A stretch of DNA of 32,295 bases, taken from a virus. A program made the translations under genes and the position numbers. How positions within the stretch are numbered: the first letter of the stretch is position 1; each line of letters opens with the position of its first letter. Below are positions 730-27,626 of this stretch, one piece after another. The notes beneath the pieces were generated by a model. That model was not told the DNA's origin, did not search any database, and worked only from the letters and a program-made list of their open reading frames with translations. Where the stretch lies: IMG/VR virus record IMGVR_UViG_3300048835_000016, positions 1-32,295 of that record, one strand, 5' to 3'.

Positions 730-1039
730 GGCTCTGCTCCCGCGCAAGGAAGGCGTCGATGTTGGAAATCGCACGCATTACTGCACACGACTCTGCGTGT
801 GGCCTGTAGTCTCTTACGTGACAGCACGATCTAACTCCGAACTCCGCGCCTTCTTCAAAGTCACTATGCTCAGCGACTTCGATGAGCGTCACCCTTGTGC
901 TGTGCAGGCACACATCGGCCTCGGCCAGCCGCGAGCGCAGACTCTCGATCTCAGCCTCGCGTGCCTCGTAGACCAGCGAGCACACGTCCCACTGGTGGGC
1001 GTCCAGCCCCAGTTCCTTGAACAGTTCGTGCTTGCTCAT
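716..1039 (-). CDS. Small coiled-coil hypothetical protein, paralogue C
   Basis: 107 residues beginning MSKHELFKELGLDAHQWDVC. Start ATG 1039 shares ATGA with the stop of the ATP-grasp gene, and a G-rich stretch (GGGGGTGG) lies upstream, so translation is probably coupled. It contains the coiled-coil segment EAEIESLRSRLAEAD that is repeated in the next gene downstream, then a Cys/His-containing part (CCHV, HAESC) and the closing helix ISNIDAFLARE. Relationship to its two downstream neighbours is seen directly in the sequence; the role is not known. Confidence 0.65.
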   Translation of the reverse strand: MSKHELFKELGLDAHQWDVCSLVYEAREAEIESLRSRLAEADVCLHSTRVTLIEVAEHSDFEEGAEFGVRSCCHVRDYRPHAESCAVMRAISNIDAFLAREQSHECR

Positions 1040-1818
1040 ACCGCCACCCCCAGCTTCTCACGGAAGCGTTCCACGTAGAAGTCCAGCGTAGACCCCTCGA
1101 TGCCCGGTGCCGTGTTGACCTCCAGAACCCGAGCCTCCCCTGCGTTGTTGCACATGAGATCCACCGCAGCGAAGTCCAATCCGAGCGCAGCTACCGCAGA
1201 GCAAGCCGTTGAAGTCACAGAATTGGGAGCCTCAATCTCCCGTGTGCAGTACACGTAGCCGTTGCGGTGGTTACGCACAGCGTTAGGCTCCGCTCCGTTG
1301 CGCCGCCGCTTCTTCTGCGCCAGATGGTACGGGCCGAACACGTGGACCCGGTACTCATGCTCGGCACGGAACCGCTTGGTGTACAGCGGGGCATCCGGCA
1401 TATCGTCCTCCCCGATGGGCACGGCAGACTCGGGATCTACGATCTCGATTCCGCTGCCTCCCTGCCCCGTGGTAGAGTGGCGAGCGAACACCGTGTGTCC
1501 GCCCTGCGCCCACGCAAAGGCGAGCGCCCTGTCGGTCGTCCACTCCACCGTCGGCACCCGTGCCTCGGTCAGCGCCTTGAAGCAGGCCAGCTTGTCACGG
1601 GCCACAGCCACCCGGTCGAAACCGTTGAGCACGTTCACGAACCCACGCAGGGGCCTGCCCATCCCGTTGTGCCTGCCCCAGTTGATGAGCACGTCCCCGT
1701 CCCGTGACAGGAAGCGGCTGGTCCCATCCAGCTTGATGCGCTTGACGCGCAGGGCACGGGACAGCAGCTTGGCCGAGTTGCTCGGGCCGTAAGGAATGAT
1801 TCTGATACGTCTACGCAT
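1036..1818 (-). CDS. ATP-grasp family carboxylate-amine ligase
   Basis: 260 residues. ATG 1818 has AGGAG six bases upstream; the frame can be extended to 1836, but that would place the start inside the palindrome 1832-1845. Residues 111-126 hold the Gly-rich nucleotide loop (RHSTTGQGGSGIEIV). EHEYRVHVFG at about 154-162, D220 in AAVDLM and E233/N235 in VLEVNTAPG form the Mg-ATP site typical of ATP-grasp ligases of the RimK/D-Ala-D-Ala ligase type. Such enzymes activate a carboxylate as acyl phosphate and join it to an amine. It lies directly downstream of a glutamine amidotransferase, and amidoligases follow, so it probably takes part in the same amide- or peptide-forming pathway. The substrate cannot be read from the sequence. 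Confidence 0.85.
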   Translation of the reverse strand: MRRRIRIIPYGPSNSAKLLSRALRVKRIKLDGTSRFLSRDGDVLINWGRHNGMGRPLRGFVNVLNGFDRVAVARDKLACFKALTEARVPTVEWTTDRALAFAWAQGGHTVFARHSTTGQGGSGIEIVDPESAVPIGEDDMPDAPLYTKRFRAEHEYRVHVFGPYHLAQKKRRRNGAEPNAVRNHRNGYVYCTREIEAPNSVTSTACSAVAALGLDFAAVDLMCNNAGEARVLEVNTAPGIEGSTLDFYVERFREKLGVAV

Positions 1819-1831
1819 AGTCCTCTCCTGT

Positions 1832-1845
1832 GTCATACGTATGAC
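1832..1845. promoter_or_regulatory. Palindrome GTCATACGTATGAC before the ATP-grasp gene
   Basis: Exact copy (TGTCATACGTATGACA extended) between the TAA stop of the amidotransferase gene and AGGAG, 13 bases before ATG 1818. Confidence 0.75.
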
Positions 1846-1848
1846 AGG

Positions 1849-3261
1849 TTAGTGCAGGCCAACGGCCAACTTCTGGTTGTCGTCAAAGCATCCGGGGCAG
1901 ATGCACCGGCTGCCGTTGTTCACCCACCCGCAGATCTCTGCCTCGTCCGCCATCAGGCGGTCGCCGCATTGGTAGCACCCGTCAGCCGTGGCCTTGATCC
2001 ACTCGTCGACCGGCACCCACTCCCCGTGTGCGGCAGGCACGTACTCTCCGCCCTTCAACCCGCCCCTGCGGTCAAGGGACGACACGTTCGCAGTACCAGA
2101 GTAATACGTCCGGTTCACCAGACGAGCCACGATCATCGGGTCCGCCCCCTTGTCCAGCCCACGCACGGCCACGGGCCGCACCGTCCACCGCTCCGCGTTG
2201 TCCTTGCAGTTCTCGACCGCCGAGTACAGGCAGTGCATCACCACAGCAGGGAGCAGCATACCGCCGTCCGGGTGGATGATGTTGCCCGACACGAGGGCTG
2301 TCGGCAGGCCAGCCACCGGGGTGACGAGGGACGGTACGAACAGGCAGTCCGTCTCGGCGTCAAGGTCATGCTCCAGCAGCATCAACTCACTTTCTTCGGG
2401 GACCTTTGTAGGGGCGGCGCTGCCCGACCACGGCGGCAGCGGGTTGCTTCTCCGGGGTGCGCTCCCCTGAGAGCCACCGCCGTACCATCCCGCCGAGCGA
2501 CGGCTGCTGTAGGACGGCACGTACAAAGGGACCGACTGTACCTCGGGGACGGTACTACCGGGGCGGAAGGTCAGCAACTCTCCCGGCTTGGGGTACGCAA
2601 TGGTCCCGCCGTGGAAGTTGTTGCGCTTAGCCAGCCAATGCAGCATCTCCGCCTCGCTCGCCAGTAGCACCGTGTCCTCGCACTCGGCGAAGTACATATG
2701 CAGGGGGCGCTTGTCATTGCGGATCACACGCACAGCGTTGTCCCGAGCGTCATGCCAGATCAGGGTGAACGCCCCGTCCAGCAGCTTGATGACCTCGGCA
2801 GGGTCGGTAGCCTCGGCCAGATTGTGCGCGATGGCGTGGCTGTCCACTTCCACCCCCTCGCCCTTCAACTCCCACAGGGACTTGCCCAAGTCGTAGGTGC
2901 TGTTGAGCGTGCCGTTGTGGACCAGCGTGATCGGCCCCTCTTGGAACGGGTGCGCGTTGTCCACGCTGACTGTGCCCACCGTGGCCGAGCGGTTGTGCCC
3001 GATGACAGCCCGCAGGTCGCACGTGTTGGAGTATGTCATGCGGTCCTGATACTCCTTGCTGGCGACTAGCTCGTAGCCGTCGGCTGCGACCTTGAACCAG
3101 TCGGCAGCCTGACCGTCCTCCATCTTGTGCCCCACGGTGAAGATGCCCGTGCTGTCGTCACCGCGCACGGTGCCAGCAATGAGCGCGTTCTCCATGAACT
3201 TGCGGCGATCACCTGCGCCGCGCGCCTTCTCGTTGGTGATGAATCCTACTATTCCACACAT
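1849..3261 (-). CDS. Class II glutamine amidotransferase (Ntn hydrolase)
   Basis: 470 residues starting MCGIVGF, so after Met removal Cys2 is the catalytic N-terminal nucleophile. Other class II marks are VRGDDSTG around 32-39, IGHNRSATVG around 87-96, NAHPF at 102-106, VHNGTLN at 114-120 and DS at 140-141. The domain releases ammonia from glutamine. It is not glucosamine-6-phosphate synthase, glutamate synthase, PurF or asparagine synthetase: no partner synthase domain follows. Instead the C-terminal half is unfamiliar, with a Ser/Pro-rich linker at about 250-290 and four cysteines near the end (CYQCGD and CICPGC) that look like a zinc ribbon. AGGAG precedes the start, which shares one base with the upstream TGA. 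Ammonia probably goes to one of the neighbouring ligases. Confidence 0.9.
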   Translation of the reverse strand: MCGIVGFITNEKARGAGDRRKFMENALIAGTVRGDDSTGIFTVGHKMEDGQAADWFKVAADGYELVASKEYQDRMTYSNTCDLRAVIGHNRSATVGTVSVDNAHPFQEGPITLVHNGTLNSTYDLGKSLWELKGEGVEVDSHAIAHNLAEATDPAEVIKLLDGAFTLIWHDARDNAVRVIRNDKRPLHMYFAECEDTVLLASEAEMLHWLAKRNNFHGGTIAYPKPGELLTFRPGSTVPEVQSVPLYVPSYSSRRSAGWYGGGSQGSAPRRSNPLPPWSGSAAPTKVPEESELMLLEHDLDAETDCLFVPSLVTPVAGLPTALVSGNIIHPDGGMLLPAVVMHCLYSAVENCKDNAERWTVRPVAVRGLDKGADPMIVARLVNRTYYSGTANVSSLDRRGGLKGGEYVPAAHGEWVPVDEWIKATADGCYQCGDRLMADEAEICGWVNNGSRCICPGCFDDNQKLAVGLH

Positions 3262-4268
3262 CAGACTTCTCCTTCCTCGTCAGAGGCTTCGGGTTCTGGT
3301 TCGTCGTAAATCTCGTCGTCTTCGTCGTATTCCGGCAGTTCGTCCTCGTCCCCATCCTCGTTGTCCAGAGTGGCGAACCTCTGAGTGGGCAGCCACGATC
3401 CAAGGTCAGGGCCGGGCTCGACCCCCTCGCCCACATCGAACGCACACGGCACTCCCCACCCTGACTGTGCGTAGGTCACGGGCTGGAACAGCAGGGCTGT
3501 CTCGACCGCACCTAGATCGTGGAGCAGCGCCTCAAGTGCAGAGTCAGGCATATTGATCTGCTCGTACAGTTCCCCGAACAGCAGCTTGACTACTGCCGCA
3601 ACCCCTTCCTGTGCGTACAGTTCGATGGGGTCGGGCAGCGTGTAGGCGTTAGCTGTCATACGTATGACACGGACCCACGCTTCCAACTGCTCCGGGGTGT
3701 CGAACGTCCGAGCGTGCCGGAACTCCAGCGTACCGAACGTGCGCAGCGGACCAGCGAACAGTCCGCTGTACTTGCACGACTGGCGCAACGAGAACATGTC
3801 CCCAGAACGTAGCGCCCTGCTCACCAGCGCCGCCTCGTCGGGTGCCCTGTACCACGGCACGCAGAAGATGTTTTCCTCGCGCTCCGTGCCAGCCCACAGG
3901 AACACCAGCGGCTCGACCATAGCGTAGTACGTACAGATCCGCGCCACTTCATCGAAGGTACGCCCGAGCATATTGGCGTGGACGTGGATGCCCGTCCGTT
4001 CCGACGGCTCCCAATGCTTGCGCGTCTTGCCGTACAGGTAGTGAACGGCAGTCGCCACGTCGTCGGGTGGCAGGAACTTAGACACGAACTCAGCGCCAGA
4101 GTTCCGCAACGAGCCGTCGTCCTTGATGTGCCAGTACTTGGTCATCTTGTTCGCCAGTTCCAGTCTGGTACCCAAGTCGAACCTCTCGACCTCGACCTCG
4201 ATGCCGTAGCCCTCGGTCGTGGGCGAGTTGAACTCGTTGGCCGAGTAGTCAGCGACGATAGGGGTCAT
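3261..4268 (-). CDS. Amidoligase-family COOH-NH2 ligase (glutamine-synthetase-like fold)
   Basis: 335 residues from ATG 4268, which overlaps the upstream stop as ATGA and has GGTGG upstream. Motifs fit the Amidoligase_2 family: GIEVEVERF (22-30) with paired metal-binding Glu, KDDGSLRNSGAEFVS (49-63), RTGIHVHANM (91-100) and LEFRH (181-185). These are the ATP/metal-binding residues of the glutamine-synthetase-like fold, predicted to form amide bonds between carboxyl and amino groups. The last 35 residues are extremely acidic (repeated D/E with Pro and Tyr) and may be a tail for partner binding or itself a substrate; that is a guess. One copy of the 14-bp palindrome lies inside the gene and is read as VIRMT at residues 201-205. 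Confidence 0.87.
   Translation of the reverse strand: MTPIVADYSANEFNSPTTEGYGIEVEVERFDLGTRLELANKMTKYWHIKDDGSLRNSGAEFVSKFLPPDDVATAVHYLYGKTRKHWEPSERTGIHVHANMLGRTFDEVARICTYYAMVEPLVFLWAGTEREENIFCVPWYRAPDEAALVSRALRSGDMFSLRQSCKYSGLFAGPLRTFGTLEFRHARTFDTPEQLEAWVRVIRMTANAYTLPDPIELYAQEGVAAVVKLLFGELYEQINMPDSALEALLHDLGAVETALLFQPVTYAQSGWGVPCAFDVGEGVEPGPDLGSWLPTQRFATLDNEDGDEDELPEYDEDDEIYDEPEPEASDEEGEV
3655..3668. promoter_or_regulatory. Palindrome GTCATACGTATGAC inside the amidoligase gene
   Basis: Exact copy entirely within coding sequence, about 390 bases before the next start codon. It cannot serve a start-adjacent role, so it argues for a DNA-level function such as a roadblock for transcription. Confidence 0.7.
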
Positions 4269-4930
4269 AGTTCCACCGTCCATTGCACTCTCCCATTCAG
4301 CGCCCGGTTGATGAGGCGACACGTCGTCGTGTCAGCGATAGGCTCCAGCAGCCCGCCGCTTTGAGTGGCAGCGACCTGCCCTCGGTAGTAGATCATGCGC
4401 TTACCCACTTGGTCCTGCGCCACGATGATGCGCCGATTGATGGCGATACTGAGCCATCCCTCAGCGAGCAGAGCAAGCGCCTCGTCCACGTTCGGCGGGT
4501 ACCACGGAGCCCACAGATGGGGCACGGTATGCGCCGACAGGTTCTTGACCTGAGCGTACGCCAGAGAGCCACGCACCTTCCGCACCTCCCACCCACGAGG
4601 CACGACCACCTTCACCTGACGCCCGTTCAGCGTGCGCCGGTACTGCCGAGCCGGGATGCGCTCGACGCTGATCGCTACCTTGTGAGTCGGGATGTTGATG
4701 CTCCCGCAGATGGGCCACCACCCTGCGATCCGGGAGACAGGGCAAGTCGTCCGTTCCTCAAAGCGACTGCTCGCCTTGCGGATACGAGCGTATCGCTCGC
4801 TCCCGTCGTCGTCCACGAGGCGGTCGTAGATGGCAGGCTCGTAGCCCCCGCCTGTATCCACGATGCAATAGCCCCCGCCTAACCATTGGGCTAGGTCGTC
4901 AGCCGATATGCCTTCCGGCAACTCAATCAT
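4265..4930 (-). CDS. Conserved-looking hypothetical protein of the amidoligase block
   Basis: 221 residues starting MIELPEGISADDLAQWLGGG. Strong GGAGGG six bases before ATG 4930, and ATGA overlap with the upstream stop. I do not recognise a family. It is a mixed, mostly soluble sequence with Trp/Pro-rich segments (AGWWPICGS, HLWAPWYPPN) and no signal peptide or membrane segment. A degenerate palindrome (GTTGTACGTATGAC) lies 16 bases before the start, the same arrangement as at other genes of this arm. Wedged between the amidoligase and the cyclotransferase genes, it is probably a component of the same pathway, either an accessory subunit or the substrate-carrying protein. Confidence 0.75.
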   Translation of the reverse strand: MIELPEGISADDLAQWLGGGYCIVDTGGGYEPAIYDRLVDDDGSERYARIRKASSRFEERTTCPVSRIAGWWPICGSINIPTHKVAISVERIPARQYRRTLNGRQVKVVVPRGWEVRKVRGSLAYAQVKNLSAHTVPHLWAPWYPPNVDEALALLAEGWLSIAINRRIIVAQDQVGKRMIYYRGQVAATQSGGLLEPIADTTTCRLINRALNGRVQWTVEL

Positions 4931-5265
4931 TTTGCACCCTCCATTTGTTGTACGTATGACACGGACGCGACGTTGACGGGCACCAGTACGAACGCAGCAA
5001 GGGCACGCGCCTCTGCTGGCGTCACCTTGCGCTTGGGCGGCTCCGGTGTGGGAGGCGGGATCGCCGTGCCACTCTCCGGGTACTTCATCTGCACGTGAAC
5101 GGACTCGACCGGATCACCTTCCAGCGCCACCATCTGCAACGCACGCCGCTCCGCTTCCTCCGCACTCAGGCACAGGAACTCGCACATGTACGTGCTGGCG
5201 TTCTCGCCTGAGGTAGTCACCTTCACGGTGTACCACTTCAGGCCGAGTTGGTTAGGCGTTTGCAC
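4927..5265 (-). CDS. Small hypothetical protein with proline-rich middle
   Basis: 112 residues from GTG 5265, preceded by GGGAG seven bases upstream and overlapping the upstream gene by 14 bases. An ATG at 5286 would give 119 residues but has no ribosome site. The first part (LGLKWYTVKVTTSGENASTYMCEFLCLSAEEAERRALQMV) looks like a small alpha/beta domain; a Pro-rich linker (AIPPPTPEPPKRK) follows, then a helix (TPAEARALAAFVLVP). The palindrome copy at 4947-4960 is read within the last codons. Function unknown; position suggests a role in the amide-ligase pathway. Confidence 0.65.
   Translation of the reverse strand: MQTPNQLGLKWYTVKVTTSGENASTYMCEFLCLSAEEAERRALQMVALEGDPVESVHVQMKYPESGTAIPPPTPEPPKRKVTPAEARALAAFVLVPVNVASVSYVQQMEGAK
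4947..4960. promoter_or_regulatory. Degenerate palindrome GTTGTACGTATGAC
   Basis: Two changes in one half-site; the other half is intact. It lies 16 bases before ATG 4930 and directly upstream of GGAGGG, and is also read as codons near the end of the preceding gene, which may explain its drift. Confidence 0.6.
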
Positions 5266-5686
5266 GGACGAACTCCCGCTCGTCATCGGTCGGCAGCCAC
5301 ACCTGCGTGCCATGCACGTAGTCGACGGACGGCTTGACCGCGAGGTACGAGTGCGGCAGGAAGTACGCCCACGCTCCCTTCCACGGGGTCTGCACCTTGT
5401 GCCGACAGTAGTAGTCGGGGTGGCCCTCGATCATGTCCAGCATATCCAGCTGGCCCTTGCTGATCCGATAGACCTCACCGAGGATCAGCGTCTCGGTCTT
5501 GTCGGTCGGAGTGTGCACCAGTCCGGGGTAGTAGTGCAGGTCCAGCATCCTGTACTGCCCGCGCAGCACGCACCGCCCGAGCAGGTCTGCACCTGACAGC
5601 GCGGAGTGATTGCCGCGCCCCTGCTTGAGCGATCCGTACACGAACACACGGATGCCCTGCGAATCAACCTTCGTTTCATCAGCCAT
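5252..5686 (-). CDS. Gamma-glutamylcyclotransferase-like (AIG2/GGCT fold) protein
   Basis: 144 residues. VFVYGSLKQGRGNHSAL (14-30) holds the conserved YGSL substrate loop, and MLDMIEGHPDYYCR (82-95) carries the expected catalytic acid at E87. The family typically cleaves gamma-glutamyl-amines to release 5-oxoproline and the free amine. The length is normal for the family and the start (ATG 5686) overlaps the upstream TAA by one base with GGAG upstream. Placed between two carboxylate-amine ligases, it could trim or recycle a gamma-glutamyl-linked intermediate, or release a gamma-glutamyl protecting group. No signal peptide, so cytoplasmic. Confidence 0.87.
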   Translation of the reverse strand: MADETKVDSQGIRVFVYGSLKQGRGNHSALSGADLLGRCVLRGQYRMLDLHYYPGLVHTPTDKTETLILGEVYRISKGQLDMLDMIEGHPDYYCRHKVQTPWKGAWAYFLPHSYLAVKPSVDYVHGTQVWLPTDDEREFVRANA

Positions 5687-6528
5687 TAGAGAATCTCCAG
5701 TCCAAAGTCAGACACATACTCCCGCAACTGGTACGCAAGCGTACCGTCTGCGGTCCCAATCGCACGTCGCACGTCAGCCCACGGCATCTCGTTGTAGATG
5801 CGCCGCACTTCCTGCTCTCCACGCGCCAGCACGCCCATCGCACCGAACGCCATGCTCCCCACGTGCAGCGCCGAGCGCGTCGTCATGGTCCACGAGTTGC
5901 CGAGTGTGCGGTACTCGATCCCGTAGCGGGTAGGTCGGTAGCGTCCGGGGCTGCCGTAGAACTGCCGACGCTTGCCCTGATTGTCCATGTTGTGGACCAG
6001 AGCAGGCAGCCCGATCATCAGGTCGCAGATTGTGGCAGCCACGAAGTCGGGGCACTCCCACCCGAGGTATTCGCGGTAGCCCAAGTGGACGTGCCCACCT
6101 GCGAAGCGCCACGCTCCGCCCGGTTCCGTCAACTCGGACGGCTGGATGCGGGGCAGCGGAGCGCCCTGCTCGTAGGCGTTGAAGTCCGGGCTGCACCCGA
6201 ACATCTGCGCCTGAGGGTTGGCGAGGGCCGCCTCGTTGAAGAACACCGAGCAGTCCGGCCACGCCTGCACCCCCGGCACCGTCTGCCGCAGCTTGGCAAG
6301 CGCCAACTGCCTGCCTCGCACCACCACGTCCGCGAAAGAGTGCGGGTCGGACACGGGCGGCACGTTGTACTCCGCCATCACGTTGTCCTCTTGCACCGCG
6401 AACCCACTTCCGGCCCCGCCAACGGGGATCGGTTTGTCCTTCGTCCCACCGAGCAGCCCAACAATGGGCAGCACGCTGTTCCCATCACGAGTGATGAAGA
6501 ACTCAGGATCAGCGCCTATCGTGAACAT
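5686..6528 (-). CDS. Phage-type COOH-NH2 ligase (second amidoligase)
   Basis: 280 residues starting MFTIGADPEFFITRDG, with a strong AAGGAGA site before the ATG. Diagnostic pieces are GADPEF (5-10), MAEYNVPP (51-58), FAGGHVHLGY (142-151), RRQFYGSPGRYR (187-198) and YGIEYRTLGN (202-211). This order matches the phage COOH.NH2 ligase type 2 family (Pfam PF14395 as I recall it), a glutamine-synthetase-like fold distinct from the amidoligase at 3261-4268. Predicted role: ATP-dependent formation of an amide link. A full palindrome is centred in the gap just upstream of the ribosome site. Two different amidoligases in one operon imply at least two distinct bond-forming steps. Confidence 0.88.
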   Translation of the reverse strand: MFTIGADPEFFITRDGNSVLPIVGLLGGTKDKPIPVGGAGSGFAVQEDNVMAEYNVPPVSDPHSFADVVVRGRQLALAKLRQTVPGVQAWPDCSVFFNEAALANPQAQMFGCSPDFNAYEQGAPLPRIQPSELTEPGGAWRFAGGHVHLGYREYLGWECPDFVAATICDLMIGLPALVHNMDNQGKRRQFYGSPGRYRPTRYGIEYRTLGNSWTMTTRSALHVGSMAFGAMGVLARGEQEVRRIYNEMPWADVRRAIGTADGTLAYQLREYVSDFGLEIL

Positions 6529-6542
6529 CTGCCTTCTCCTTT

Positions 6543-6556
6543 GTCATACGTATGAC
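6543..6556. promoter_or_regulatory. Palindrome GTCATACGTATGAC before the second ligase gene
   Basis: Exact copy (TGTCATACGTATGACA extended) filling the gap between a TAA stop and the AAGGAGA site, 14 bases before ATG 6528. Confidence 0.75.
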
Positions 6557-6558
6557 AT

Positions 6559-7548
6559 TTAACCGTTGTTCCACAGACCGACGGGCTGCTGCGCCAGATA
6601 CGCAGGGGTACGCGCCGCCAGCCGCCAATAGTCGGGAATCGTCAAGTCAGACGCCTTCTCGATAGGGCGCGTGACATACTCCTCCAGTTCCTCGTCCCAT
6701 ATCTCGTCCATGGCCTCGTCGTCGTGGTCCCCGTCCAACGAGAAGGACAGGTTGATTGCCCCGACCATGCTGCCCGAGTTGGAGTTCAGGTACTCCGGTG
6801 CCTCGTGTACGTTCACGGCCACGGCCCGAGTGTAGCGGTAGTGGTCGTCGCCGAGGACCGTCGCGCCCAACAGTTCCTCGGTCACGGTCTGGTCCTGAGA
6901 CTTGTCGATGCGAGTCTCCCGATTGGCGTACTCAGCGTCGTAGACCGGGCCACACGTGAAGTTCGGCACGGCTTGCAGCTTGGCTGCCGTGCGCATCACG
7001 TTGCGCATCTTTGACCGATTGTTAGCCGCCCTGTCGAACGCGAAGATGCCCCGCTTCCCGACCTCAATCATACGGGCCAGCGCCCAGTACATAAGGCTCC
7101 GGTCCATGATCTCCGCCACTTCGCGCCGACTCAGCGACCGCTCAGCACGCAGCGCGTCGTGGATGGACGGCACGTTCGCCCGTTCTGCGTGTGACACCCT
7201 GAGGTGACTCGCCCCGAGCGTCCCGAGGCGTGGCGCAGACCACTGGTTTTCCTGCTCGTGGGTGAAGATGGTCCCACCCGACGACGCCAGCACTCCGCCG
7301 CAGAAGTCGTGGATGTGCTGCCCGAGCAGCATCCGAGTCTCGGCCATACACCAGCGGTCCGAGTCCTCGGAGTTGCGGAAGCGGTACAGCCCCCACACCC
7401 ACCACCACGCGGCCCGCTGGTCCGGACCCTCTGCCGGATTGAACGGACGCCACGTGCTGTAGCCCACCAGCTGGTTACGCGGGAAGCTCCCCACGAACAA
7501 GGGCACAAACGCAGTAGCGAGCGGCTGATTGGTGAAAGTCACAGTCAT
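6559..7548 (-). CDS. Hypothetical protein, first gene of the amide-ligase block
   Basis: 329 residues starting MTVTFTNQPLATAFVPLFVG. GGAG seven bases before the ATG; the palindrome 7561-7574 stands directly before it. No family recognised. The N-terminal third is rich in aromatic residues (WRPF, AAWWWVWGLYRF), the middle is helical (REVAEIMDRSLMYWALARMIEVGKRG), and the C-terminus is acidic (DGDHDDEAMDEIWDEELEEY). No signal peptide or membrane helix. It is separated from the second ligase only by a stop codon, the palindrome and the ribosome site, so it shares its transcript and probably its pathway. Confidence 0.75.
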   Translation of the reverse strand: MTVTFTNQPLATAFVPLFVGSFPRNQLVGYSTWRPFNPAEGPDQRAAWWWVWGLYRFRNSEDSDRWCMAETRMLLGQHIHDFCGGVLASSGGTIFTHEQENQWSAPRLGTLGASHLRVSHAERANVPSIHDALRAERSLSRREVAEIMDRSLMYWALARMIEVGKRGIFAFDRAANNRSKMRNVMRTAAKLQAVPNFTCGPVYDAEYANRETRIDKSQDQTVTEELLGATVLGDDHYRYTRAVAVNVHEAPEYLNSNSGSMVGAINLSFSLDGDHDDEAMDEIWDEELEEYVTRPIEKASDLTIPDYWRLAARTPAYLAQQPVGLWNNG

Positions 7549-7560
7549 TTCGATTCTCCA

Positions 7561-7574
7561 GTCATACGTATGAC
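7561..7574. promoter_or_regulatory. Palindrome GTCATACGTATGAC before the gene at 6559-7548
   Basis: Exact copy 12 bases before ATG 7548, directly before GGAG. The upstream gene ends inside it: the palindrome supplies its final codons and TGA stop. Confidence 0.75.
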
Positions 7575-7738
7575 ATTTCCGACGTTGTGGACTCGACTTC
7601 CCGACGCAGTTCAGCCGTGAGGCGCGCTCTCATATCTGCGAAGCGCCCGTGCTTGGACAGGTTCGGGTAATCGTGCTTGGCCCTACGCTTCGCCTGCCTG
7701 TGCCTGCGAACGTAGGGATTGCGAGATTTGCGGCTCAT
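7562..7738 (-). CDS. Small basic hypothetical protein
   Basis: 58 residues, MSRKSRNPYVRRHRQAKRRA at the start, very rich in Arg/Lys, so likely nucleic-acid binding. ATG 7738 shares ATGA with the stop of the small membrane protein gene upstream, which fixes the start; a longer in-frame extension to 7864 would overlay that gene. Its last residues, MSYV, and its stop codon are encoded by the left half and centre of the palindrome 7561-7574, so operator and gene end are fused. Function unknown. Confidence 0.6.
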   Translation of the reverse strand: MSRKSRNPYVRRHRQAKRRAKHDYPNLSKHGRFADMRARLTAELRREVESTTSEMSYV

Positions 7739-18901: not shown

Positions 18902-20212
18902 ATGTCCGTCGAACGACGATATTCGCTGATCCGGCATGAGCACACGATTCAGGACTTTGAAGACTGGGGCCTATTAGGCACCACAGCCGATTGGTGGGGC
19001 AAGCTCACTCGCGTCCTCGACAACGGCGTAATGGAGATCGGGAAGTACATCGACTTCCACGAGACCGACGACGACGCCGGCGACTACGACTACCGCCTCA
19101 CGGTGACTTCCGGGAGTCTGTACACTAGCGGCGACATTCAGACTGGCCGCGTTATTGCGCAGGGTGCGACTGGCGCACTTCCTTCGCTTGGATACGCCAA
19201 CGAATCTACCAGCCTAGTCCTCAGCTACAGCGGAGACTTCGCCTACGGCCTGCTGGCCGGAGTCCTCAATTCTGGCAACGCCTGGATTCAGGTGGGCCGC
19301 TTTGACGGCACGGCCACGGCGTACAACTTATCCCTACAGCCCCTCGGGGGCTCAGTACACGTAGGCAACATGGGTGGCGGCGTCACTAACATCTACGGCA
19401 CGAACGGCAACATCGTTGACTTCGTGACGAACCACGCGACCACGGCGTACCTGCGCCTATTCACCAACAGAGGAGCTACGCTCAACTCCTACTGGTACAC
19501 CGACGCTTCAGGGCACGGCCTTCTTGGCAGCAATGGCGCTTGGGATCTAGTGATTGATCAGGCCAGCAACGCCGTTACGATGTACGGCAACGTCGTTATT
19601 CCTAGTGGCAGCGGCTACTTCTTCGACGGCGGCGGTACAAACTACATCGGCAACAACACCACGTCCTCCTACTCCACGCTGCTCATCTCTAGCTCAAGGG
19701 GCGGATACAGCGGCTTTTACTGCGCGCACTCAGGCGTGTCGATGATGTGGGATAGCTCCGGTAACGGCGGCCCGTACCGCGAATCCAACAGCAGGTGGTT
19801 TCACTACTACAACGTCAGTACCGACTGCACCGGTTTCGGTGGCACGAGTACCTCGGGCTCCTACCGCATATACGTTACCGGATCAGCCTACGCGACCGGC
19901 ACTTGGACGGCCTCGGACGGACGCAAGAAGGAGAACATCCGCACGCTTAAGGGCGCGCTGGATGTCGTCTCCATGATGCGCGGAGTCGAGTATACGTGGA
20001 AGGCAGACGCCAATGTTGGCCAAGACCCGGACGTTGCGCACATCGGCGTGATCGCTCAGGAAGTGCAGGAAGTCGTGCCGTCAGCGGTCCACTACGCAGC
20101 GGACTCTGACTCGTACGCAGTCGACTACAACGGCCTCGTCGGCCTGTTGATTCAGGCAGTCAAGGAGTTGAAGGAGGAAGTCTATGAGCTTAAGACAGAA
20201 CGCCGTCGCTAA
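18902..20212 (+). CDS. Fibre/appendage protein with S74 intramolecular chaperone domain
   Basis: 436 residues, GGAG five bases before ATG. A repetitive beta-rich shaft rich in Gly, Ser, Thr and Tyr fills residues 60-335. From residue 338 the sequence SDGRKKENIRTLKG, then HIGVIAQEVQEVVP and YNGLVGLLIQAVKELK, is a typical Peptidase_S74 chaperone; S338 is the expected self-cleavage nucleophile. It trimerises the fibre and then is cut off. Unusually the gene lies among head genes rather than at the tail end, so it could be a head fibre or a tail spike. Some TTA codons occur, unlike in the portal gene. Confidence 0.85.
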   Translation: MSVERRYSLIRHEHTIQDFEDWGLLGTTADWWGKLTRVLDNGVMEIGKYIDFHETDDDAGDYDYRLTVTSGSLYTSGDIQTGRVIAQGATGALPSLGYANESTSLVLSYSGDFAYGLLAGVLNSGNAWIQVGRFDGTATAYNLSLQPLGGSVHVGNMGGGVTNIYGTNGNIVDFVTNHATTAYLRLFTNRGATLNSYWYTDASGHGLLGSNGAWDLVIDQASNAVTMYGNVVIPSGSGYFFDGGGTNYIGNNTTSSYSTLLISSSRGGYSGFYCAHSGVSMMWDSSGNGGPYRESNSRWFHYYNVSTDCTGFGGTSTSGSYRIYVTGSAYATGTWTASDGRKKENIRTLKGALDVVSMMRGVEYTWKADANVGQDPDVAHIGVIAQEVQEVVPSAVHYAADSDSYAVDYNGLVGLLIQAVKELKEEVYELKTERRR

Positions 20213-24819: not shown

Positions 24820-26130
24820 ATGCCCTTAATGGCAGCCGGTATCGGCGCAGTCGGTAGTATCGCGGGCGGCCTCATCGGAGGCAAGCCGTCGACTCCGAAG
24901 TACCGCCCCTTCGACGTGACGTCAGGCCTCGGTCTGGTGGACTACGACAAGAAGGGCCGGACCATCGACGCCACGCTCTCCCCGGAGCAGCAGGCGTTTG
25001 CGGACCAGTACAACCAGATTGCGCAGGGCTACCTCGGTGGTGGCTACGGCGGCCAGCAGGCGCAGGAGTGGATGCAGCAGGCAGGCGGGATGATCCCCGG
25101 CCTGTTCCAAGGCTCGCTGGATGCTTCGGCCATGGATCCGTACTCGCTTGCTGCGTACCAGCAGCAGTTGGGAGGGTTGCAGGGGCAGCTGGGCGGGATG
25201 TTTGGGGGTGCGGCTAACTACGGTGCGGGCATACTCGGAGGCCCGGCCCCCGGCGCGGCCCAGTCGAACCAGATGTTCGGCCTCGGCCAGCAGCTTGCGG
25301 GCAACAACTACAACGACGTGTACCAGCAGAGGCTCGGCCTTCTGCGCCAGCAGGCACAGCCGTACGAGCAGCGCGCTCAGGACTCGTTCCTTGGGCGGCA
25401 GTACGCAATGGGCCGCATGGGCACCACGGGTGGCCAGCGCGATATCGAGGCGTTCTCGACCGGCCTGAGTCAGGGTGACACGACCCGGCAGCTGGACGCG
25501 ATGGGCTTGGCTGAGTCCCTGTACGGCAGGGATCAGGGTCTTGCTCAGGGCTACATGGGTCAGGGCTTGCAGGGCATTCTGGGTGGCTTCGGTGCCCAGC
25601 AGCAGGCCGGTCAGGGCATGTTCGGCTTGGCTGGCCAGCTTGGACAGCAGCTTGGCGGTCTCTACGGGCAGGGCTTCGGCGCTGCGCAGGGCTTCAACGA
25701 GCTCACCAACCAGCGCGCACAGCAGCGGATGGCCAATGCCACGAACCTGTTTGGGTTTGGCTCGAACGTCAACACGCAGAACCTCCAGACCGGTACCGGT
25801 ATGCAGGGGAACGCGGTCAACCTGTACCAGCAGTTGCTCGGCAACGCAGGCTACGGGCACACGGCTGGCGCTGGCGCTATGGCCGGTCAGGCCTACGCGG
25901 CTCAGTCCTTCCAGCCCAACGCGCTCGGCGCAGGCATTCAGGCGTTCAGCAACGGTATGCTCGCCAATCCGGCAGCCTTCGGCAGCCAGATCAAGGGCCT
26001 GTTCGGCGGAGGTGGTGCCCCGGCTCCGACCGTGGGCAGCTACGCCATGCAGCCGTTCAACGTGCCTAGTGGTGTGCAGAACATCCAGATGCCCAACTTC
26101 AACATCCTCCCCGGTGGAGGGAGCTTCTAA
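24820..26130 (+). CDS. Internal virion protein, Gly/Gln-rich
   Basis: 436 residues starting MPLMAAGIGAVGSIAGGLIG. Small Gly/Ala hydrophobic N-terminus, then repeats rich in Gly, Gln, Tyr and Ala (GGLQGQLGGMFGGAANYGAG). This is the first of three ejection proteins of short-tailed phages, which leave the virion with the DNA and form a channel in the cell envelope. Confidence 0.75.
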   Translation: MPLMAAGIGAVGSIAGGLIGGKPSTPKYRPFDVTSGLGLVDYDKKGRTIDATLSPEQQAFADQYNQIAQGYLGGGYGGQQAQEWMQQAGGMIPGLFQGSLDASAMDPYSLAAYQQQLGGLQGQLGGMFGGAANYGAGILGGPAPGAAQSNQMFGLGQQLAGNNYNDVYQQRLGLLRQQAQPYEQRAQDSFLGRQYAMGRMGTTGGQRDIEAFSTGLSQGDTTRQLDAMGLAESLYGRDQGLAQGYMGQGLQGILGGFGAQQQAGQGMFGLAGQLGQQLGGLYGQGFGAAQGFNELTNQRAQQRMANATNLFGFGSNVNTQNLQTGTGMQGNAVNLYQQLLGNAGYGHTAGAGAMAGQAYAAQSFQPNALGAGIQAFSNGMLANPAAFGSQIKGLFGGGGAPAPTVGSYAMQPFNVPSGVQNIQMPNFNILPGGGSF

Positions 26131-27626
26131 TGGCGAATCCTCAGATGTATCCGGGCCTGCTCTCGCAGTTCGGCTTGGATCTCGACCCGGCCAAGATGAA
26201 GGAGCAAGACCTTCTCCTGAACCAGCAGCGCAACCTTGAGTTGGCTGGTGGGCTGGGCTACCGTGGCTCGGCAGCGGGTGCCGCTCAGGGCGGTGCCCTG
26301 TTCGCGGCTGCCCTTGCGAATCGGGGGTACAAGACCCCTGATCAAGACCAGCGGAAGATCGACACGGCCAAGCAGGCGACGCAGTTGATGGACGCGTGGA
26401 GGGCCAAGAACCCGGACGCCAAGGCTACCGACGCCTCCCTCCAGTACCAGAAGTTCCTTGCCGACTCTGCCTTCCGTAACGGGCTGGCCGACGTCGGTGC
26501 TTCGGTCATGGAACAGTACGAGACCAAGCGGATGCAGCGCGAGGCGCAGCAGCTTGAACTCAAGAACCTCGGCTTCGACTCGCGTATCAAGGAAGTGCAG
26601 GCCGACATGGCACCAGAGGAGGCCGAGCATCAGAAGTGGCTGTGGGGCCAAGAGGAGTGGCAGGATGTGTTCCCGGTCGGGGCCAACAACCCGAACACCG
26701 GCAAGCGCCTCAAGATCGACTCCGAAGGCAACATGACGGACAACCAAGGGAACGTCATCTATCAGGCTGGGGAGTACACCTCAATCCGTCCGCAGGAGCT
26801 CACGTCGACCAACGGGGAAGGCGTCGAGCTAATGATGACCGACTCCGAGGCTGGCAAGAAGCGAGAGATCCAGACGGCCTTCGTGGAGATGATCGACGGT
26901 GTTACGGACGTTGCGAACATCATCGACAACGCGACTGCGCGGGATGGGAGCACTGACGTCCTAGGCTTCGGCGGAGCGGTCGCCGCTAAGTCTGTCGAGA
27001 TCGCAGACAACATGACCTCGACGATGAACAACATCGGCAAGATGTTCGGCATCGCTCCGGGCGCAGTCGAGATCGAGATTCCCGGTGAGGTCGGCAAGAA
27101 GGGCCAGAAGAAGTACGCAGACCTGCGTGGTAGCGGGCAGAAGATCCTGCTTGAGAAGTACGGCAGACAGGTGGACGGCGTGCTTCACGCCTACATCCCT
27201 GACGCCCTGCGGCTCACAGGTCAGGACGCCATCCGCATTCGACAGAACCTCATGAACGTGGCCTACGCGATCATGCGGTCGAAGGAGCCGGGCAACAACC
27301 GGTACTCGGACGCGGACTTCAAGAACGCTCTGGAACTTGCCGGTCAGGGATTGGCGGATCCCGAGAAGCTCAAGGCTACGTTGTACGACAACGTGAACCG
27401 GGCGGCTCGATCCTACGATCTGGCACTGGCTCAGACGGCTGGTATGCACGACCGGATCTGGTCGGCAGAGAGCAGAGAACTCACGGCTCGGAAGCGGGCC
27501 GAGTTCGACAAGCGGTTTGGCGGGTATGCGATTCCCACTGCACGTGGGGTAGCCCCGGTCAATAGCGGTCGTCCGGTCACGGTGACTGACGACGAGGGTG
27601 AGTGGCAGTTGTCCATCGCCCCATAA
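26130..27626 (+). CDS. Internal virion (ejection) protein
   Basis: 498 residues starting MANPQMYPGLLSQFGLDLDP. Mostly helical; a central part (VEMIDGVTDVANIIDNATAR) and a C-terminal part around RIRQNLMNVAYAIMRSKEPG. No enzyme motif. The stop-start overlap with the preceding gene and the following transglycosylase gene mark it as the middle ejection protein. Confidence 0.75.
   Translation: MANPQMYPGLLSQFGLDLDPAKMKEQDLLLNQQRNLELAGGLGYRGSAAGAAQGGALFAAALANRGYKTPDQDQRKIDTAKQATQLMDAWRAKNPDAKATDASLQYQKFLADSAFRNGLADVGASVMEQYETKRMQREAQQLELKNLGFDSRIKEVQADMAPEEAEHQKWLWGQEEWQDVFPVGANNPNTGKRLKIDSEGNMTDNQGNVIYQAGEYTSIRPQELTSTNGEGVELMMTDSEAGKKREIQTAFVEMIDGVTDVANIIDNATARDGSTDVLGFGGAVAAKSVEIADNMTSTMNNIGKMFGIAPGAVEIEIPGEVGKKGQKKYADLRGSGQKILLEKYGRQVDGVLHAYIPDALRLTGQDAIRIRQNLMNVAYAIMRSKEPGNNRYSDADFKNALELAGQGLADPEKLKATLYDNVNRAARSYDLALAQTAGMHDRIWSAESRELTARKRAEFDKRFGGYAIPTARGVAPVNSGRPVTVTDDEGEWQLSIAP

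Follow-up and report, generated by a model that had tools for sequence, protein, structure and literature searches.

A known phage cassette of amide-bond-forming enzymes beside the replication genes of a virus genome: a putative gamma-glutamyl intermediate and a conserved core protein

The virus record IMGVR_UViG_3300048835_000016 (positions 1 to 32,295; the whole stretch of 32,295 bases is referred to here as the window) carries eight co-directional minus-strand open reading frames (ORFs) at 1036-7548, all of them where an earlier note on this DNA had placed them. Five encode enzymes, namely an ATP-grasp ligase, a class II glutamine amidotransferase, an Amidoligase_2-type ligase, a gamma-glutamyl cyclotransferase (GGCT) and a COOH-NH2 ligase, and three encode proteins of no assigned function. 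This five-enzyme block is not a new pathway but the podovirus "peptidoglycan modification cassette" of phiEco32-, LUZ24- and RIO-1-type phages. We propose, with a probability of roughly 0.6, that the member found here acts as a cytosolic pathway early in infection, forming successive amide bonds by way of a gamma-glutamyl intermediate. The earlier note had described an amide/peptide-bond pathway; the idea of a single pathway holds up, but it was not newly noticed, as the block has been described for LUZ24-, phiEco32- and RIO-1-like phages and the ligation and gamma-glutamyl steps that the note lists are much the same as those already given in the papers on the cassette.

To place the window among its relatives, we compared two sets of loci: 84 (80 viral contigs found with a ligase profile, three annotated phages and the window) and 60 previously unused contigs from a second scan. 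The first loci were annotated with iterated profiles, and gene calls within loci were mechanical. Loci were picked for their resemblance to the COOH-NH2 ligase; this favors complete cassettes and sets the count of that ligase by construction. The amidoligase and the amidotransferase were each detected in 83/84 loci of the first set and 59/60 of the second, and the ATP-grasp ligase in 78/84 and 55/60, respectively. Across these roughly 140 viral loci the four ligase and amidotransferase genes nearly always co-occur. The earlier note had named homologous blocks that are scattered, never together, as evidence that would speak against it; since the blocks stand together in nearly all relatives, that objection is answered. 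Mirror-tree correlations among the cassette enzymes were no higher than those with the neighboring primase and give no evidence of special co-evolution.

A gamma-glutamyl intermediate is suggested by what accompanies these four genes. A second recurrent neighbor of the cassette is a peptidase C26 (PF07722, 1e-18), which is unrelated to GGCT; the nearest NCBIfam models to the member tested were those of gamma-glutamyl-CDP-amidate hydrolase and PuuD. Among 86 flank-complete cassettes, 27 have GGCT only, 40 have C26 only, 16 have both and 3 have neither; that is, GGCT or C26 is present in 83/86. Because these two unrelated families both cleave gamma-glutamyl amides and at least one of them is nearly always present, a gamma-glutamyl intermediate is the most economical reading. 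No peptidase C26 was found in the window or in a near-identical contig described below. By family matches, the enzyme classes of the cassette are comparable to those of butirosin (BtrJ/BtrG), putrescine (PuuA/PuuD) and ergothioneine (EgtA/EgtC) metabolism and to gamma-glutamyl-CDP-amidate hydrolase. In those systems a ligase adds gamma-glutamate, and a GGCT, a C26 peptidase or an N-terminal nucleophile (Ntn) amidase takes it off. The butirosin, putrescine and ergothioneine pathways differ from the cassette in being cellular and in having known substrates, and we claim no orthology.

The genes of the cassette in the window, in the order of transcription, are as follows (lengths in amino acids, aa).

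6559-7548, minus strand: Y, 329 aa, fast-evolving, directly upstream of the COOH-NH2 ligase, with motifs DFCGG (Cys83) and NSNSG (255-259)
5686-6528, minus strand: COOH-NH2 ligase, phiEco32-like type 2, glutamate-cysteine-ligase superfamily (PF14395, E = 6.5e-7; phrog_3815, E = 2.3e-48)
5252-5686, minus strand: gamma-glutamyl cyclotransferase (GGCT/GGACT; PF06094, E = 5.2e-19), YGSL motif and E87 conserved
4927-5313, minus strand: 128-aa ORF, start codon uncertain, found in the window phage and the near-identical contig
4265-4930, minus strand: X, 221 aa, conserved cassette protein recognized by a family profile, between the COOH-NH2 ligase and the amidoligase
3261-4322, minus strand: Amidoligase_2-type ligase, likely start 4283 (phrog_7469, E = 2.5e-29)
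1849-3261, minus strand: class II (Ntn) glutamine amidotransferase domain with a Cys-containing C-terminus (PF13522, GATase_6, E = 7.3e-15; phrog_4736, E = 1.3e-61)
1036-1836, minus strand: ATP-grasp ligase, RimK-like, likely start 1818 (phrog_2599, E = 5.8e-73)

Profile searches support each of the five enzyme assignments made in the earlier note (with PHROG, Pfam or both), and its reading of the motifs as intact is borne out by catalytic residues that line up with those of LUZ24, SU10 and Lyrsu01. In the COOH-NH2 ligase, the residues invariant in an alignment with known phage enzymes include D7, E9, H146, H148, E205 and R207. The amidoligase has no Pfam match, and its E42, E44, E46, H113, H115, E200 and R202 are invariant with LUZ24 gp18, SU10 gp86 and Lyrsu01. 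Conserved positions of the amidotransferase are C2, R91, H104, N116-G117 and D140, as well as C432 and C444; in NCBIfam it is GlmS-like with a weak match to EgtC, and no synthetase domain was recognized on the protein. For the ATP-grasp ligase, D226, E239 and N241 of the VDL and LEVNTAPG motifs are invariant, Pfam models match only below threshold, and NCBIfam points to RimK/MptN (E about 1e-6). It falls short of the equivalog for RimK-type S6:glutamate ligases (best NCBIfam RimK score 20-27 bits vs. cut-offs of 143 and 331). The true starts of the ATP-grasp ligase and the amidoligase are probably the ATG codons at 1818 and 4283, each of which, on inspection of the context, lies behind a Shine-Dalgarno sequence. 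None of the eight cassette proteins matched the PADLOC models of anti-phage defense at E<=0.01.

The closest described systems have the same make-up. LUZ24 (Bruynoghevirus) encodes the COOH-NH2 ligase, amidoligase, amidotransferase, ATP-grasp ligase and GGCT in one run (gp14-gp22), has an X-like protein, gp17, at the same position (similarity judged by inspection) and continues, as the window phage does, into primase/helicase and polymerase. It differs in that GGCT stands last rather than second and that gp14/gp15 take the place of Y, and its enzymes are 26-35% identical to those of the window. SU10 (phiEco32-like, Kuravirus; gp90-gp78) has the same enzymes and X (gp87) before primase/helicase; unlike in the window, GGCT is set apart by small genes, the ATP-grasp ligase and amidotransferase are larger, and gp89/gp90 replace Y. 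Lyrsu01 has the same five enzymes in nearly the same order, and the RIO-1-like Pseudoalteromonas phage PSA-HP1 is described as having two amidoligases, ATP-grasp, amidotransferase and GGCT in a seven-gene block (PMC5498523). The adjacency of GGCT and COOH-NH2 ligase, which also occurs in four relatives of the window (L010-L013), is a minor variant of this order. Overall, the COOH-NH2 ligase had tblastn matches in 312 annotated phage records, whereas 84,980 species genomes of bacteria and archaea yielded 12 matches, each of them on a contig whose title marks it as metagenome-assembled.

From these observations we infer the order of the reactions, their substrate and product, and when they take place in this phage. 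The two ligases of glutamate-cysteine-ligase fold and the ATP-grasp ligase would form amide bonds in turn, with a gamma-glutamyl amide as the intermediate of at least one step. The class II amidotransferase domain, which stands alone, may bind glutamine or another gamma-glutamyl amide and either supply ammonia or remove the glutamyl group. Removal of the gamma-glutamyl group would fall to GGCT, and in related phages to peptidase C26, much as it occurs with BtrJ/BtrG of the butirosin, PuuA/PuuD of the putrescine and EgtA/EgtC of the ergothioneine pathway. Several points weigh against this scheme. No substrate or product of the cassette is known in the literature we looked at, no synthetase domain partners the amidotransferase, which leaves the ammonia acceptor unclear, and enzymes acting on other substrates share the GGCT fold. 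Moreover, few independent events underlie the apparent exclusion between GGCT and C26 (4 and 6 changes on the tree), and with these a descent-aware test is powerless. We dropped mutual exclusion as a statistical claim: it was nominally strong (Fisher p = 9e-5) but not significant in the descent-aware test.

The usual interpretation of the cassette is a different one, in which the stem peptides of peptidoglycan acquire unusual linkages through these enzymes, so that superinfection is barred or lysis prepared. Glutamate amidation and gamma-glutamyl bonds are both part of wall chemistry, which is in favor of this idea; the known substrates of GGCT and C26, on the other hand, are L-gamma-glutamyl amides. 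The cassette has been described under the name "peptidoglycan modification" (PMC5498523, PMC11945000), and modification of wall precursors against superinfection is repeated in these papers and in PMC10580990, which credit it to Iyer et al. (2009). Consistent with an early role, the predicted peptidoglycan-modification genes of HP1 show immediate expression (PMC7082346), and the ATP-grasp, amidotransferase, GGCT and gp86 proteins of SU10 are early gene products that were detected by mass spectrometry in a phage sample precipitated with polyethylene glycol (PMC4281155). However, we found no experiment on wall modification in the literature searched, cellular genomes almost never carry the cassette, and no wall-synthesis gene was recognized among the recurrent neighbor clusters that we looked at. 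We regard a wall target as possible but doubtful, and none of our results speaks for it directly. As a product, a modified nucleotide or a hypermodified base of DNA appears very improbable: the cassette does adjoin primase, helicase and DNA polymerase, but neither the scanned proteins nor the recurrent neighbors looked at include a hydroxymethylase, a thymidylate-synthase-like, a tRNA-guanine transglycosylase (TGT)/preQ0 or a base-transfer gene, and this suggestion of the earlier note thus found no support. The sequence does not discriminate among the products it listed (a tag, a nucleotide, a wall precursor or an anti-defense peptide).

The neighbors of the cassette raise a further alternative. 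Proteins encoded beside it are dissimilar, yet many share a Cys-Cys-Gly (CCG) motif, for which gp14/gp15 of LUZ24 and gp89 of SU10 have Cys-Phe-Gly; a subset additionally has Asn-x-Asn-Ser-Gly. The CCG motif was first spotted by eye and then tested statistically. It was observed 28 times in the first locus set vs. 1.7 expected, and in loci not used for discovery it occurred in 22/240 near ORFs (0.8 expected) vs. 6/415 far ORFs (1.6 expected). When every tripeptide was ranked by enrichment across 778 sequence-cluster representatives (discovery and new loci pooled; near means within 1.5 kb of the cassette), CCG came first (32/289 near vs. 7/489 far, p = 5e-9) and Asn-Ser-Gly (NSG) fourth. The cassette might thus be a virus-borne protein-modification system, with these hypervariable neighbors, in this phage Y, as its dedicated substrates or partner enzymes, recognized through Cys-Cys-Gly/Cys-Phe-Gly (Cys-Gly-Gly in the window) and often Asn-x-Asn-Ser-Gly. 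The 47 motif-bearing proteins, Y included, have no PHROG match and only isolated, weak Pfam matches, as would suit such a role. Against it, the pattern used finds a CCG-type protein at only 54/134 loci, and Cys-Gly-Gly alone, the form in Y, is not enriched near the cassette. Instead of a site of modification, the motif could mark an active site or form a structural turn, and some members look GNAT-like (one weak Pfam match, L027, E = 0.05). On balance we consider modification of neighbor proteins an unlikely, tentative reading. A lipoprotein box was rejected by inspection as an explanation of CCG, as many copies of the motif are remote from the N-terminus or have no preceding hydrophobic stretch.

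Y itself offers few handles. Orthologues occupy the same position in L010, L011, L012 and L014, with more divergent ones in L015 and L016, and the only residues invariant across them are M1, P16, C83, N255, N257 and S258. Searches of Pfam, NCBIfam and annotated phages (tblastn) gave no match, PHROG matches were at chance level, and the conserved sequence is too scant to serve as a query in a profile search for relatives. In a profile comparison of Y with the CCG proteins only the NSG region aligned (84% probability). The structure model is of low confidence (predicted local distance difference test, pLDDT, 45), its fold matches are meaningless, and it gave no match to the GNAT fold. The 128-aa ORF likewise has no significant family match in Pfam, PHROG or NCBIfam; as called it overlaps GGCT, and small indels separate its versions in the window and the near-identical contig.

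Of the three genes that the earlier note left without a function, Y and the 128-aa ORF lack a family match. The third, the 221-aa X, is a conserved and previously overlooked core gene of the cassette and no orphan. The family profile matches proteins at 54/84 loci and at 46/60 further loci, located between the two amidoligases. Among its members are gp87 of SU10 and a plus-strand ORF that the annotation of Lyrsu01 lacks; tblastn of X against annotated phages gave no match. In Lyrsu01 (L007 6986-7618), the annotated minus-strand gene 00054 overlaps this plus-strand ORF (7022-7618), which is clearly homologous to X (E = 4e-31), and gene 00054 is a probable misannotation. An AlphaFold2 model of X (pLDDT 89) has a putative SH3/Tudor-like barrel at the N-terminus and a helical and beta C-terminal part. 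The best fold match (VIA-align Z 7.3 over 67 residues) lies inside the noise range and involves common small barrels only, with the C-terminal part barely tested.

The early block lies on the minus strand at the left of the window, and to its right are plus-strand structural genes for terminase, portal, major head protein, tail fiber, and virion and lysis proteins. A second, independent contig of the same collection (L002) is near-identical to the window (99.4% over 7.3 kb), keeps the reading frames and, in the seven genes that align without gaps, has 12 codons with synonymous and 4 with nonsynonymous differences. It joins both ends of the window via about 12.5 kb with primase, DnaB-like helicase, DNA polymerase, exonuclease and phosphatases, so that the genome is about 45 kb; in it the cassette runs on into the primase, helicase and polymerase genes. 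The region of this contig that is absent from the window also encodes a protein with weak sigma-factor/helix-turn-helix similarity and a deoxynucleoside-monophosphate-phosphatase-like protein (L009 1091-1873 and 8755-9390). Among the structural genes, the tail fiber (18902-20212) has a C-terminus that matches many long-tail-fiber profiles and is possibly a self-cleaving chaperone end. A tRNA-Leu called by ARAGORN at 26253-26350, within a long structural ORF (26130-27626, plus strand), is probably a false positive.

The early block also contains nine perfect or near-perfect copies of the 16-bp palindrome TGTCATACGTATGACA, vs. 0.1 expected, and none of the copies lies outside the block.

Window 1831, 3654, 4946, 6542, 7560, 7952, 8733, 9106 and 10382: copies of TGTCATACGTATGACA, several directly before Shine-Dalgarno sequences

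Close relatives have palindromes of their own at similar density, also within genes: CTTAACATGTTAAG in L010 (8 copies), TTAGTACGTACTAA in L012 (17 copies) and CTTGTACGTACAAG in L014 and L015 (11 and 16 copies). These palindromes may be distributed operator sites.

Overall, the cassette is widespread in phages and almost confined to viral contigs, yet has no known product in the literature we looked at, and for this reason each clue to its chemistry counts. The conserved X belongs in any reconstitution of the cassette. The neighbors with CCG and NSG motifs are candidate partners or substrates and provide a practical test against the wall-modification hypothesis. Finally, the recurrent presence of GGCT or C26 suggests a gamma-glutamyl intermediate, which could be sought by mass spectrometry.

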